Under the pieces are notes generated by a model that searched no databases, was not told the DNA's origin, and saw only the letters and a list, made by a program, of their open reading frames with translations. A program made the position numbers and the translations under genes. Below are positions 4,116-8,459 of a DNA stretch of 64,000 nucleotides, piece after piece (the first letter of the stretch is position 1; each line of letters starts with the position of its first letter). Origin of the DNA: Aquisphaera giovannonii (GTDB lineage Bacteria; Planctomycetota; Planctomycetia; Isosphaerales; Isosphaeraceae); NCBI RefSeq assembly GCF_008087625.1, contig NZ_CP042997.1:10044001-10108000 (forward strand), written 5' to 3'.

Positions 4116-5813
4116 CTACTTGCGCAAGGGGGCGATGATCACCACCTCGTCGCGGGCCTCCAGGCGGAGGCCCAGCGGCCCGAGGATGCGGTCGAGGGCC
4201 GCGCCGAGGGGCTCATCCCTGGCCTCGCCGCGGACGGTCGTCTTGGGATCAATCGCGCCCGACATCCGGCCGGCCGGATCGAGGACGAAGTTCTCCATCG
4301 TCTCCTGCTCGAAGCGCTCGGCGAGAGCCTGCAGGGTGACGCCTTCGAGCTTGAAGGACGCCTTCTGCTTCAGCCGCTCGGCGATCCGCTTCGCGCAGGC
4401 TTCCTGGGGCTTGGAGAGGGCCGTCCCGGCGGCGACCCTCGGCTTCTGGATGACGAGCAGCCCTTCATCCGTCGGCTTGAAGGACAGGCCCAGGGGGTCG
4501 AGGGCCAGCTCCAGGGCGCTGCGGGTGGAGATCATGCCGGCGACCTGGAGCGGGATCTTCGTCTCAAGCGTCGCGCCGGCGGCCTTGAGCGCCTCGGGGT
4601 CGGCCTTGACCGGGACCTTGGCGGCCTTCGCGACGATGTCCATCGCCTGGGCCAAAGTCGGGTCCTGGAAGTAGACCGTGACGTTGCGGTCGAGCGACCG
4701 CGGGACCCGGACGGAGGCCGGGATCGGCGGGAGCTTCTTCTCCAGGTACTCCTCGGTGGCCTCGCCGACGAGCTTGCCGTCGGGGTCGATGAGGAGCATC
4801 GTCGGGAAGGCGCGGATGCCGTACTTCTCGACGGTCTCGCCCGTGCTGTCCATGAGGATGGGGAACGGCAGCGGGCGCCCGCCCCAGGGCCCTTTGATGT
4901 GGGGCTCCATCTTGGGGTCGAGCTCGGCGAAGGTCTTGGCGGTGGCATCGTGGAAGGCCAGGATCTCGAACTTGTCGCGATCGGCCGCGTGGTCCTCGTA
5001 GAAATCGATCAGGTGCGGCAAACTGCCGCTCGTGCAGGGCCCTCACCAGAAGCCCCAGAACTCCATCAACACCCACTTGCCCTTGTAGTCGGACAGCTTC
5101 ACGTCCTTCTTCGCGCCCCGGGCGTCCGTGACGTGCAGGGCCGGCGGCTCCTTGCCCTTGTGGCGGGCGATGATCGTGGCCTCGAAGTCCAGCGACTTCA
5201 GGTCCAGGTCCTTCGCGCCGGGCTCGACCTTGACGTCCTTGCGGAGGTCGGCCACGTCGGTGCCGTAGGCCCAGAGCTTGTAATCGCCCCGCGGCAGGGG
5301 GAAGTCGAACTCCGCCTTCTCGGAGTCGTCCTGGAGGACGCGGGCCCCGGATGCGGTCGAGACGTAGACGATCGACCACTGCGGCGGCCTGCCCAACTCC
5401 TTGCAGGTGAACGAGCCGTGGACGCGCGTCAGCGGCCCGAGCGTGATCGCCAGCGGGCCGTCCGGGCCCTTGCCCTTCACGGCGGCGAGCGCGCCGGCCT
5501 TCCGGTCGCCGTCCATGACGACGAGGGCCGCGTCCCGGCCGTAGGTGCGGACCTCGATCGAGAACGAGCCGTCGGCCGCGGTCTTCACGCCGTCGATCGG
5601 CATGGCCTGGGCCCTGGAGTCGCCCCGCGGCATGACCCAGAACGAGGCCACGTCCGCCCCCCGGGCGGGCTTGCCCGCCGCGTCCACCACCCTGCCCGCC
5701 ACCTTCACCGGCGGCGGGGCCTGCGCCCGGGCCGCCGCGGGCAGCAGCGCCGCCAGCAGCCCCAGCGCCGCCAGGCGGGCGGACGTCCGCACACTCGCAT
5801 GCACATCCATCAT
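4116..5813 (-). CDS. Putative selenoprotein: TlpA/thioredoxin-like disulfide reductase with UGPC active site
   Basis: Read through one in-frame TGA (5043-5045), this is a 565-residue protein. Start is ATG 5813, with GAGGAG 9 nt upstream. Residues 1-31 are a signal peptide (A-A-L-L-P-A-A-A-R-A); about 35-225 are Ig-like/carboxypeptidase-regulatory domains (V-A-G-R-V-V-D-A-A-G-K-P-A-R-G-A). A thioredoxin domain follows: W-V-L-M-E-F-W-G-F-W, then TGA as residue 257, then G-P-C (Cys260), S-L-P-H-L-I-D-F-Y, and the cis-Pro in A-F-P-T-M-L-L-I-D-P. Two secretin/STN-like modules form the C-terminus, each ending in a L-x-P-L-G-L strand pattern. Cysteine homologues would carry C-G-P-C here, so the TGA falls exactly on the nucleophilic cysteine. 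The family would act outside the cytoplasm. Alternatives are a nonsense mutation or a sequencing error (TGC to TGA). The FG-GAP gene lies 33 bp upstream, probably co-transcribed. Confidence 0.72.
5015..5029 (-). promoter_or_regulatory. Candidate bacterial SECIS hairpin
   Basis: On the minus strand the sequence is GCGGCAGTTTGCCGC: a perfect 6-bp stem with a three-base GTT loop. It begins 13 nt after the in-frame TGA at 5043-5045, and the loop G is nucleotide 20 after the TGA. Bacterial SECIS elements lie just 3' of the UGA, with a small apical loop carrying G in its first two positions at about this distance. The loop is built by the codons AGT and TTG, both unusual in this GC-rich genome, where AGC and CTG would be expected. 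Confidence 0.6.
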
Positions 5814-5846
5814 CAATAAGGTCTCCTCAAGGTCAATCGACCGGCC

Positions 5847-8459
5847 TCAAAATACGTTCCGCTCGAACGTGTTCACGTTGGAGATCGTCACCGCCGACGT
5901 GGAGTTCGCCGAGGCGCTGGTGAGGATGAAGGTGAGCGTGTGACGCTCGAGGAGCCCGGCGCTCAGGCTGATGGTCGCGTGCTGCGTGCCCGTGCCGGAG
6001 ACGGTCGGGTCCATGACGAATGCCTCCTTGCCGTCGGCCAGGATCGTCAGCAGGTCGCCGGGCTGGTACGACGGGAAGGCGTAGTCGAACGAGATCCCCG
6101 CGTAGCCGTCGAGCGGCGCCCGGAAGCTCACGGCCTGCGACTGGATCACGGAGGACGACTGCTGCAGGCTCACGGTGCCGACGCCGGCGGAGGTGAACGT
6201 GAAGTTCTGGGACGGCGGGGAGCCTTCCGAATCCAGGACGAATTGCCGGTCGGCCGGGTGCGAGAGGATGTCCCAGTCCTGCTCGTAGTAGGGGGACAGT
6301 CCGGGAACCGGGTTCGAGGATCCGGCGTTGGCCGGCAGCAGCGGCGACCAGTACTGGCCGACGCCCGATGCATTGCCGTTGTTCAGCGACGGCTCGCCGG
6401 AGCCGGTGTACCACCAGGCGGCGTAGCTGTGCCGGTCCGGGATGTTGGTCTCGCTCAGGCTGTCCGGGTACAGGCTCACGTCCACGACCTGGTTCAGGGA
6501 GTTCGAGAGCGTGACCGTCCCGTTGCTCGTCGTCCCGCCGTACGCGTAGCCGAAGTACGAGGCGTACGCGTCCACGAACGGCGCGGAGGCGCTCTGGCGG
6601 TTCAGGCCGAGATCCTGGAGGAAGTACCAGTTGAAGTTCGCCGCGCCCAGGGTCACGACGGCCTGCCCCTGCGCGGTGTCGGAATCCTCCGGGGAGTCGA
6701 GGAGCGTCAGCTGCTTGAGCGGATAGCCGTCCTGCTGGAGCCGGACGGCCGCGACCGTGGCCACCTTGGATCCGTGGCTGTGGCCGACGAGCTGGATGTT
6801 CGCGGCCGAGGCCGCCGACGCCGAGCCGAGCGCCAACTCCAGGCCGGCGGCCAGGCGTTCGCCGTTGAGCGTGGTGCGGGACTCGGAGATGTCGGCGTCC
6901 TCCGGGACCTTCACGCCCAGGAAGTCCCAGGCGGGCGTCGCGGAGTCGTCGATCCACGAATAGGCGAGCACCACGGCGTTCGGGTCCGCCGGGCCGCCGG
7001 AGCCCGAGGTCCGGTCTTGGCCGATCGACTGGGCCATGCCGGTGGCCGCCGCGGCCGTCGCGTTGGGCGGGCCGCCCTGGAGGAGCCAGTCCGACGCCGG
7101 GCCGGGGTTCTTCGCCGGCGGGTTGTAGCCGTCCTGCTTCTGGAAGGTCTGCCACCACTCCAGCGTGGTGCCCTGCTGGGCCGCGTACTGCACCCAGTCG
7201 CTGTACCCGGGCGCCCAGCCGTGGACGAGCACCGTGATGTCCTTGCCCACCAGCCGCGAGTCGTTCTGCTGGACCGGCAGGAACTTCCCCGAGCCCGGGT
7301 CGTAGATCGCCAGCCGCTGGAGGGGCGTGAGCGAGGCCGGCGTCGCGGACGCGAGGCCGTTCGCCACCGCCGCCGCGGGCGTCGAGTTGGCCACGGTGCC
7401 GGAGCCCGCCACGAACGCCCCGCCGCGGGCCGCGGGGACGCGATACGCCACGCTCGGCGAGGGGAGCAGGGATGCCAGCGACGGGAAGACCGCGCCGAGG
7501 CGGAGCGACTGCGTGCTGACGACGACCGCGGACGGGGCCCTCGCGCCCGATCGGGCCGAGGACAGGGCGATCTCGTCCCCGGTCCGGCTCTGCACGCCGA
7601 GCGCCGCGACCTGCACGCCCGAGCCGGCCGCGAACGGGCCGGCCACTTTGAAGTCGGCGGCCACCGTCGACGTCGTCCCCTGGAAGACGCGGACCCGGGC
7701 GGACCTGCCGGCGGCCGCGGCGACCACCACGTCCATCCGCTGGGCGCTCGCGACGTTGCCCACCGCGACCGAGAGCCCCCCGGCCGCGGCCCTCGGCAGG
7801 GCCTTGTACGAGGAGACGACCGCCCCGCCCGGGCCGAAGACCCGGACGAGCGGCCGGCCGGCCCCCGGCGTGGCGACGATGTTGGCGAGGCCGTCCCGGT
7901 CCAGGTCGCCCACCGCGACCTTCGCCCCCTTCCACGCCCTCGCCGGGAGCCCGGCGCCCGCCTGGAAGCTCTGGACGAGCTGGCCGCCCGCCCCGCGGAA
8001 GACCTGGATCAAGGGCGTGCCCAGCCCCGGCGCCACGACGATGTCCGCCGCGCCGGTCCCCTCCACGTCCCCCGCCGCGACCCAGTAGCCGCCGCGACGC
8101 CCGCCCGAGACCGCGAACGAGCCCTCGAGCATCCCGTCGGTGGACCGGAACACCCGGACGAGCCCCGGCCCCCCCGGCCCCGTCGCCGTGACGATGTCCT
8201 GGACGCCGTCGCCGTCCGCGTCCCCGACCGCCACCCGGACGCCCGCCCGCATGCCCCGGCCGTACGCGAGGAACGAGAAGCTCGGCTCGCCCGTCGCCGC
8301 GTCGAGCACCCGGACCACCGGCGCCTGCCCCCGCCCCGCCCCCTCCACGAGGATCGTCGAGAGCAGCCGGCGATCCTCCAGGGGCTCGATCGCCAGGGCC
8401 CGGCCCCCCCTCCGCCGCGCAGCCCGCAGGCGTCGCCGACTCGTCGCATCAGAGTTCAT
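5847..8459 (-). CDS. Secreted FG-GAP repeat protein with alpha/beta-hydrolase (lipase-like) domain
   Basis: An 870-residue exported protein. Residues about 22-34 read A-I-E-P-L-E-D-R-R-L-L-S, the LEPRxLLS-type motif common at the N-terminus of large planctomycete surface proteins. Residues about 35-330 contain repeated V-A-V-G-D-x-D-x-D-G blade units (FG-GAP/VCBS, calcium-binding beta-propeller type). Residues about 370-700 form an alpha/beta-hydrolase domain: V-L-V-H-G-W-A-P-G as an oxyanion strand and L-V-G-H-S-H-G-S-K as the nucleophile elbow (Ser near residue 560). The last 110 residues are a beta-rich domain, probably carbohydrate-binding or adhesive. Substrate is unknown. It is followed 33 bp downstream by the selenoprotein gene. 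Confidence 0.8.
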   Translation of the reverse strand: MNSDATSRRRLRAARRRGGRALAIEPLEDRRLLSTILVEGAGRGQAPVVRVLDAATGEPSFSFLAYGRGMRAGVRVAVGDADGDGVQDIVTATGPGGPGLVRVFRSTDGMLEGSFAVSGGRRGGYWVAAGDVEGTGAADIVVAPGLGTPLIQVFRGAGGQLVQSFQAGAGLPARAWKGAKVAVGDLDRDGLANIVATPGAGRPLVRVFGPGGAVVSSYKALPRAAAGGLSVAVGNVASAQRMDVVVAAAAGRSARVRVFQGTTSTVAADFKVAGPFAAGSGVQVAALGVQSRTGDEIALSSARSGARAPSAVVVSTQSLRLGAVFPSLASLLPSPSVAYRVPAARGGAFVAGSGTVANSTPAAAVANGLASATPASLTPLQRLAIYDPGSGKFLPVQQNDSRLVGKDITVLVHGWAPGYSDWVQYAAQQGTTLEWWQTFQKQDGYNPPAKNPGPASDWLLQGGPPNATAAAATGMAQSIGQDRTSGSGGPADPNAVVLAYSWIDDSATPAWDFLGVKVPEDADISESRTTLNGERLAAGLELALGSASAASAANIQLVGHSHGSKVATVAAVRLQQDGYPLKQLTLLDSPEDSDTAQGQAVVTLGAANFNWYFLQDLGLNRQSASAPFVDAYASYFGYAYGGTTSNGTVTLSNSLNQVVDVSLYPDSLSETNIPDRHSYAAWWYTGSGEPSLNNGNASGVGQYWSPLLPANAGSSNPVPGLSPYYEQDWDILSHPADRQFVLDSEGSPPSQNFTFTSAGVGTVSLQQSSSVIQSQAVSFRAPLDGYAGISFDYAFPSYQPGDLLTILADGKEAFVMDPTVSGTGTQHATISLSAGLLERHTLTFILTSASANSTSAVTISNVNTFERNVF

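Follow-up and report, generated by a model that had tools for sequence, protein, structure and literature searches.

A minus-strand reading frame in the 64-kb window (the whole stretch of DNA analysed, 64,000 nucleotides) is interrupted by a TGA codon, and the question was whether this codon ends the gene or encodes selenocysteine (Sec). The gene was judged to encode, with a probability of about 95%, an exported selenoprotein, a thiol-disulfide oxidoreductase of the ResA/TlpA type whose UGA is read as Sec through SelB, tRNA-Sec and a SECIS element. The sequence-only reading had proposed a selenoprotein with TGA at the active-site Cys, and the Sec machinery of the genome, seven homologues with TGA and a conserved SECIS-like hairpin supported this proposal. 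The features of the locus are listed in Table 1.

Table 1. Features of the predicted selenoprotein locus (positions in the window)
Feature	Position	Strand	Details and basis
Selenoprotein gene (predicted)	4116..5813	-	565 codons including one Sec codon; ATG 5811-5813; stop TAG 4116-4118
Alternative start (possible)	5814..5816	-	In-frame TTG
AGGAG, Shine-Dalgarno-like (putative)	5823..5827	-	9 nt 5' of the ATG; read from the sequence
Signal-peptide-like segment (putative), residues 1-30	5724..5813	-	Inspection; low-pLDDT helix 8-29
Carboxypeptidase-regulatory-like beta module, residues 38-94	5532..5702	-	Pfam PF13620, weak in this protein
ResA/TlpA-type thioredoxin-fold domain, residues 220-363	4725..5156	-	PF00578, 58.6 bits; structure matches
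Predicted Sec codon TGA (residue 257, first position of UGPC)	5043..5045	-	Frame; same TGA in seven homologues
TGC, resolving Cys260 of UGPC	5034..5036	-	Sequence; alignment with homologues
SECIS hairpin (predicted), GCGGCA-GUU-UGCCGC	5015..5029	-	Stem of 6 bp; spacing from UGA to loop 19 nt; loop begins with G-U
cis-Pro codon, AFPT, residue 337	4803..4805	-	Invariant in two alignments
First C-terminal beta-alpha module (putative STN-like), residues ~377-456	4446..4685	-	Repetition of the second module; secondary structure of the model
Second C-terminal module, residues ~484-562	4128..4364	-	Weak STN (secretin/TonB N-terminal short domain), PF07660

Reading frame and position of the TGA codon

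Translation with the TGA taken as a residue showed that it was the sole in-frame TGA of the frame, as had been claimed. Its context in the translation was GKWVLMEFWGFW-U-GPCTSGSLPHLIDFYE, and the residues right after U began with GPCTSGSLP. The GC contents at codon positions 1, 2 and 3, calculated over 100 codons on either side of the TGA, were 0.65, 0.37 and 0.99 upstream and 0.63, 0.42 and 0.95 downstream, and the codon signature on the two flanks is that of one gene. The read-through protein aligned end to end with Cys homologues whose frames are uninterrupted; the two halves around the TGA therefore belong to one gene. The TGA occupies the N-terminal position of a ResA/TlpA-type active site, where most homologues carry Cys, in agreement with its earlier assignment to the nucleophilic Cys of CGPC, and the resolving Cys and the cis-Pro were intact, as the same reading had stated.

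A mechanical search ends the open reading frame at TGA 5043, and an automatic annotation would break the gene in two or shorten it at this point, as it would for a real nonsense mutation that left a pseudogene or a truncated protein of 256 aa. Such a mutation was considered very improbable: the 308 codons that follow the TGA are strongly biased as coding sequence and show no other damage to the frame, seven homologues likewise have TGA at this catalytic codon, the hairpin downstream has been kept by covariation, and the genome has the full Sec machinery. Because automatic annotation cuts such genes at TGA, the protein is probably missing from public annotation or truncated in it.

Only two further TGAs in the window, at 5849 and 28507, were flanked on both sides by coding-like sequence. 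TGA 5849 terminates the upstream gene, at its boundary with the predicted selenoprotein gene. This upstream gene (5847-8459, minus strand) encodes a protein of 870 aa, an FG-GAP-like repeat protein by inspection; its TGA end lies about 33 nt before the start of the selenoprotein gene in the same frame, and co-transcription is possible. TGA 28507 (plus strand), with 285 coding-like codons before it and 480 after it, looks like the boundary of adjacent genes in the same frame.

Conservation of the TGA codon

Among the homologues collected by the active-site pattern, the codon at this site was TGA in eight genes (the gene of the window included), TGC or TGT in 34, and AAC in one, a degenerate copy from G063 that reads WNGPS; TAA and TAG did not occur. 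Alignment with Cys-containing homologues had been suggested earlier as a check, and these 34 genes and the full-length match are its outcome. The seven other TGA genes (L048, L118, L119, L120, L123, L204, and L205) belong to other planctomycete genomes or MAGs. Three of them (L048, L204, and L205) are full-length, with the beta module, the thioredoxin domain and the C-terminal modules, and come from a genome of another genus of the same family (G017) and two genomes of another family of the class (G181 and G154). The remaining four (L118, from groundwater, L119, L120, and L123) are from MAGs and are shorter, without the C-terminal modules.

The predominance of Cys codons at this site would fit a sequencing or assembly error in which the true codon is TGC or TGT. 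However, the same TGA was present in separately assembled genomes and MAGs (those of all seven TGA homologues), and each TGA homologue had a SECIS-like hairpin, while the Cys homologues were without it; the probability of an error was thus regarded as very low.

SECIS-like hairpin downstream of the TGA

The RNA after the TGA reads GGGCCCUGCACGA-GCGGCA-GUU-UGCCGC, with the hairpin starting 13 nt past the UGA. The published bSECIS model describes a stem of 4-16 bp, a loop of 3-9 nt with a G in the first two positions, a spacing of 16-37 nt and an MFE of -7.5 kcal/mol or lower (PMC13188914), and the predicted hairpin, with a stem of 6 bp, the loop GUU, a spacing of 19 nt and an MFE of -8.7 kcal/mol when folded alone, lies within these limits. 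The core GCAGUYUGC was found at the same place in all eight TGA genes. Over the eight sequences the six-pair stem was 93.8% paired, whereas sliding the partner by 1-3 columns gave a pairing of 31-56%. Compensatory changes were present at two pairs of the outer stem (GC, CG, and AU at columns 17/31; CG and GC at columns 18/30).

A stricter rule (perfect stem of at least 5 bp and GU in the loop), defined once the first hairpin was already known, was satisfied by 7 of the 8 TGA genes (8 of 8 with one mismatch) and by 2 of the 35 other homologues (Fisher 8.5e-6, kinship ignored). The rule was also satisfied by 6.3% of ordinary codons in genes of the same genome, and by the hairpins of two other predicted selenoprotein genes of the genome described below, SelD (loop GUC) and a second Sec thioredoxin (loop GGUC).

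In homology-supported genes of the genome, which served as the background for codon usage, AGT was used for 0.6% of the 517 Ser codons, and TTG for 2.4% of the 1093 Leu codons. The very rare AGT was invariant in all eight TGA genes, which supports a constraint at the RNA level. An Rfam scan of 4900-5100 gave no match; many bacterial SECIS elements are unlike one another (PMC13188914), and this result is therefore no evidence against a SECIS element.

Selenocysteine machinery and other predicted selenoproteins

The sequence-only reading had made its proposal depend on selB and tRNA-Sec occurring in the genome, and both were found. The genome (10.5 Mb, 3 contigs) encodes selA (475 bits, cut-off 268), selB (main segment 331 bits, 370 bits together with its neighbours, cut-off 242), selD (350 bits, cut-off 125) and tRNA-Sec (77 bits, gathering score 47), which ARAGORN identified as tRNA-SeC with anticodon TCA. 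All of these genes lie outside the window. The UGA at 5043-5045 would be decoded as Sec by SelB together with tRNA-Sec(UCA), with insertion presumably directed by the hairpin just 3' of the UGA.

In-frame TGA codons were also found in three other genes of this genome. The SelD gene (L043, C1:9201676-9202605, minus strand) has its own TGA in NCAGUAGK, followed downstream by the hairpin GCGCAG-GUC-CUGCGC. The formate dehydrogenase alpha-type gene (L236 nt 1924; C1 near 271856, plus strand) has a TGA in ARIUHSASVPGL, and this ARIUHSASV site is a classical Sec site. A second thioredoxin/TlpA-like gene (L087, C1:8827597-8827611, plus strand) reads DFWGDWUGPCRAMYPHE and has, 31 nt past the UGA, a hairpin of 7 bp, CACGAGC-GGUC-GCUCGUG; the same TGA is kept in its homologues L068 (G017) and L088 (G005), and all NCBIfam models scored below cut-off for L087. 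With these three genes, the genome has at least four predicted selenoproteins. Full sets of Sec-insertion genes have been reported for Isosphaera pallida and Gemmata obscuriglobus (PMC4807772). Little has been published on planctomycete selenoproteins, and the present set adds to the record.

Some kind of read-through of the UGA is required by the data in any case, and near-cognate suppression by Trp or Cys, or a changed code, would provide it without Sec. This explanation was considered highly unlikely, as TGA is an ordinary stop here (the upstream gene with TGA 5849 and many ORFs of the genome end with it), the site is the position of a redox Cys, a classic place for Sec, and the genome provides a dedicated tRNA-Sec and SelB, and the gene a SECIS-like hairpin.

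Domain architecture and structural model

The N-terminal segment is basic, with a hydrophobic core and the ending ...AARA|QAPPP. Because by inspection this segment resembles a cleavable signal peptide, the protein is predicted to function outside the cytoplasm, where it probably works as a thiol-disulfide oxidoreductase. PF13620 matched the beta module with an E-value of 2.8e-4, below the cut-off, and 7 of 7 family members matched it at E<=0.1 (best 6.1e-8). The Pfam matches to AhpC-TSA, Redoxin and Thioredoxin_8 (PF00578 and PF08534 among them) covered residues 220-355. PF07660 scored 16.8 bits (E 0.0062) over residues 521-561, a weak match against a gathering score of 28.4; at E<=0.1 it matched five of the seven family members, with 3.4e-6 as the best E-value.

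The AlphaFold model, built with 16 sequences, had a mean pLDDT of 91. Residues 214-363 of the model matched ResA, Etrx2 and DsbE with VIA Z-scores of about 15-16 and an rmsd of 2.0-2.6 over ~130 residues, and with Foldseek E-values of 1e-9 to 3e-10. Together with PF00578, the CxxC-equivalent site and the cis-Pro, these matches bear out the earlier assignment to the TlpA/thioredoxin family. In the model, Sec257 stands directly before helix 258-274, as in ResA, Cys260 lies within this helix, and Pro337 precedes strand 338-342. Read in the light of established thioredoxin chemistry, this arrangement would correspond to a thioredoxin-type active site in which Sec is the exposed nucleophile; Sec257 would attack the substrate and Cys260 would resolve.

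A selenoprotein acting mainly as a peroxiredoxin-like peroxidase was also considered, since the best Pfam match was AhpC-TSA and peroxiredoxins were among the structure matches (Z ~14). However, WUGPC with a cis-Pro follows the logic of thioredoxin and TlpA and differs from the TxxC/U of peroxiredoxins, and the nearest structures were ResA, Etrx2 and DsbE. A peroxidase was therefore regarded as unlikely, though less so than the other alternatives, and a thiol-disulfide oxidoreductase as the preferred function.

The catalytic domain of this predicted oxidoreductase is preceded by the beta module and followed by the two STN-like modules; these flanking modules may position the enzyme at the cell envelope. 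As STN-like modules occur in envelope proteins, the C-terminal modules could serve in placing the enzyme or in binding a partner, which is a guess.

Relationship to known selenoproteins

Thioredoxin-like selenoproteins with UxxC are well known (PMC13188914, PMC1088965), and the principle of Sec in UxxC proteins of the thioredoxin and TlpA type is not new. The inventory of 2026 contains 119 prokaryotic selenoprotein families and subfamilies, and those with UxxC include thioredoxin, PF00578, PF08534 and cd02966 (TlpA-like) (PMC13188914). The protein of the window shares with the TlpA-like or thiol-disulfide isomerase-like UxxC selenoproteins (cd02966; PMC1088965, PMC13188914) the TlpA-like thioredoxin fold, the N-terminal Sec of UxxC and the SECIS directly downstream. 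By the published listing, the cd02966 selenoproteins are set apart from it: they consist of a thioredoxin-like domain, while here a beta module, a TlpA domain and two STN-like modules are combined in a subfamily of planctomycetes that has a SECIS core of its own, GCAGUYUGC. The Prx-like thiol:disulfide oxidoreductase (PF00578) and Redoxin (PF08534) UxxC selenoproteins have the same Pfam domains and motif class but another architecture, judged from the published table (PMC13188914).

ResA, StoA and TlpA (PDB 1st9, 4nmu, and 2yp6) have the fold, the CxxC-equivalent site and the cis-Pro in common with the predicted selenoprotein; however, they are single-domain Cys proteins, while here the protein is predicted to have Sec and is multi-domain. 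The NCBIfam model of ResA (NF002854) scored 65.9 bits on this protein against a cut-off of 170, and that of StoA 42 bits against 210. The ResA-like WAxxUGC selenoprotein (NF041054) also has Sec in a ResA-like protein, with a UGC motif there and UGPC here; identity with it was rejected at 20.8 bits against the required 300. No NCBIfam model, the Sec-specific WAxxUGC model included, reached its cut-off for this protein, L118 or L119.

The planctomycete subfamily, the three-part architecture and the family-specific SECIS core are new. On balance, the genes may well represent a family of exported TlpA-like enzymes of planctomycetes that depend on Sec and have not been described so far, with its own GCAGUYUGC core and repeated Sec/Cys exchange, the largest form being fused to STN-like envelope modules. 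If this is true, a selenium-based thiol relay would operate in the periplasm of bacteria in which this compartment is unusually large. The 8 TGA homologues, the 34 Cys homologues and the conserved SECIS core are enough to build a family model.

Exchange of Sec and Cys in the family

The phylogenetic tree required about four changes between Sec and Cys; its deep branches were weak. tRNA-Sec was present in the TGA-bearing genomes G017 and G181. It was not found in the TGA-bearing G154, a fragmented genome of 280 contigs whose congener G181 has one, or in the complete genome of Singulisphaera acidiphila (G027), a member of the source family Isosphaeraceae that has two Cys copies only. The genomes G015, G028 and G035 have tRNA-Sec, yet their family member is the Cys form, and Sec is therefore not obligatory in this family. 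Pairs of Sec and Cys homologues could be used to test what is gained from selenium in an exported TlpA-like enzyme. Two congeneric genomes were searched and gave no match to the selenoprotein gene.

A DNA-pattern scan for WUGPC in 45 genomes of the family gave mostly chance matches. Matches with thioredoxin context were L068, L087 and L088, which are thioredoxins of the second family, and the genes of the window and of G017 (L083 and L048); the remaining matches that were read had no thioredoxin context. Stops in L058, L056, L226 (G063) and L208 were rejected as Sec codons, since none lay within the active site; some were close to gene ends.

L226 (G063:C53:16500-23500) is a tandem duplicate in which one copy reads WNGPS and has lost both catalytic residues, with the rest kept. 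In L123 (nt 3646), UGPC is replaced by UHSC, an unusual Sec motif for this fold, and a Cys paralogue with CNTS lies on the same contig.
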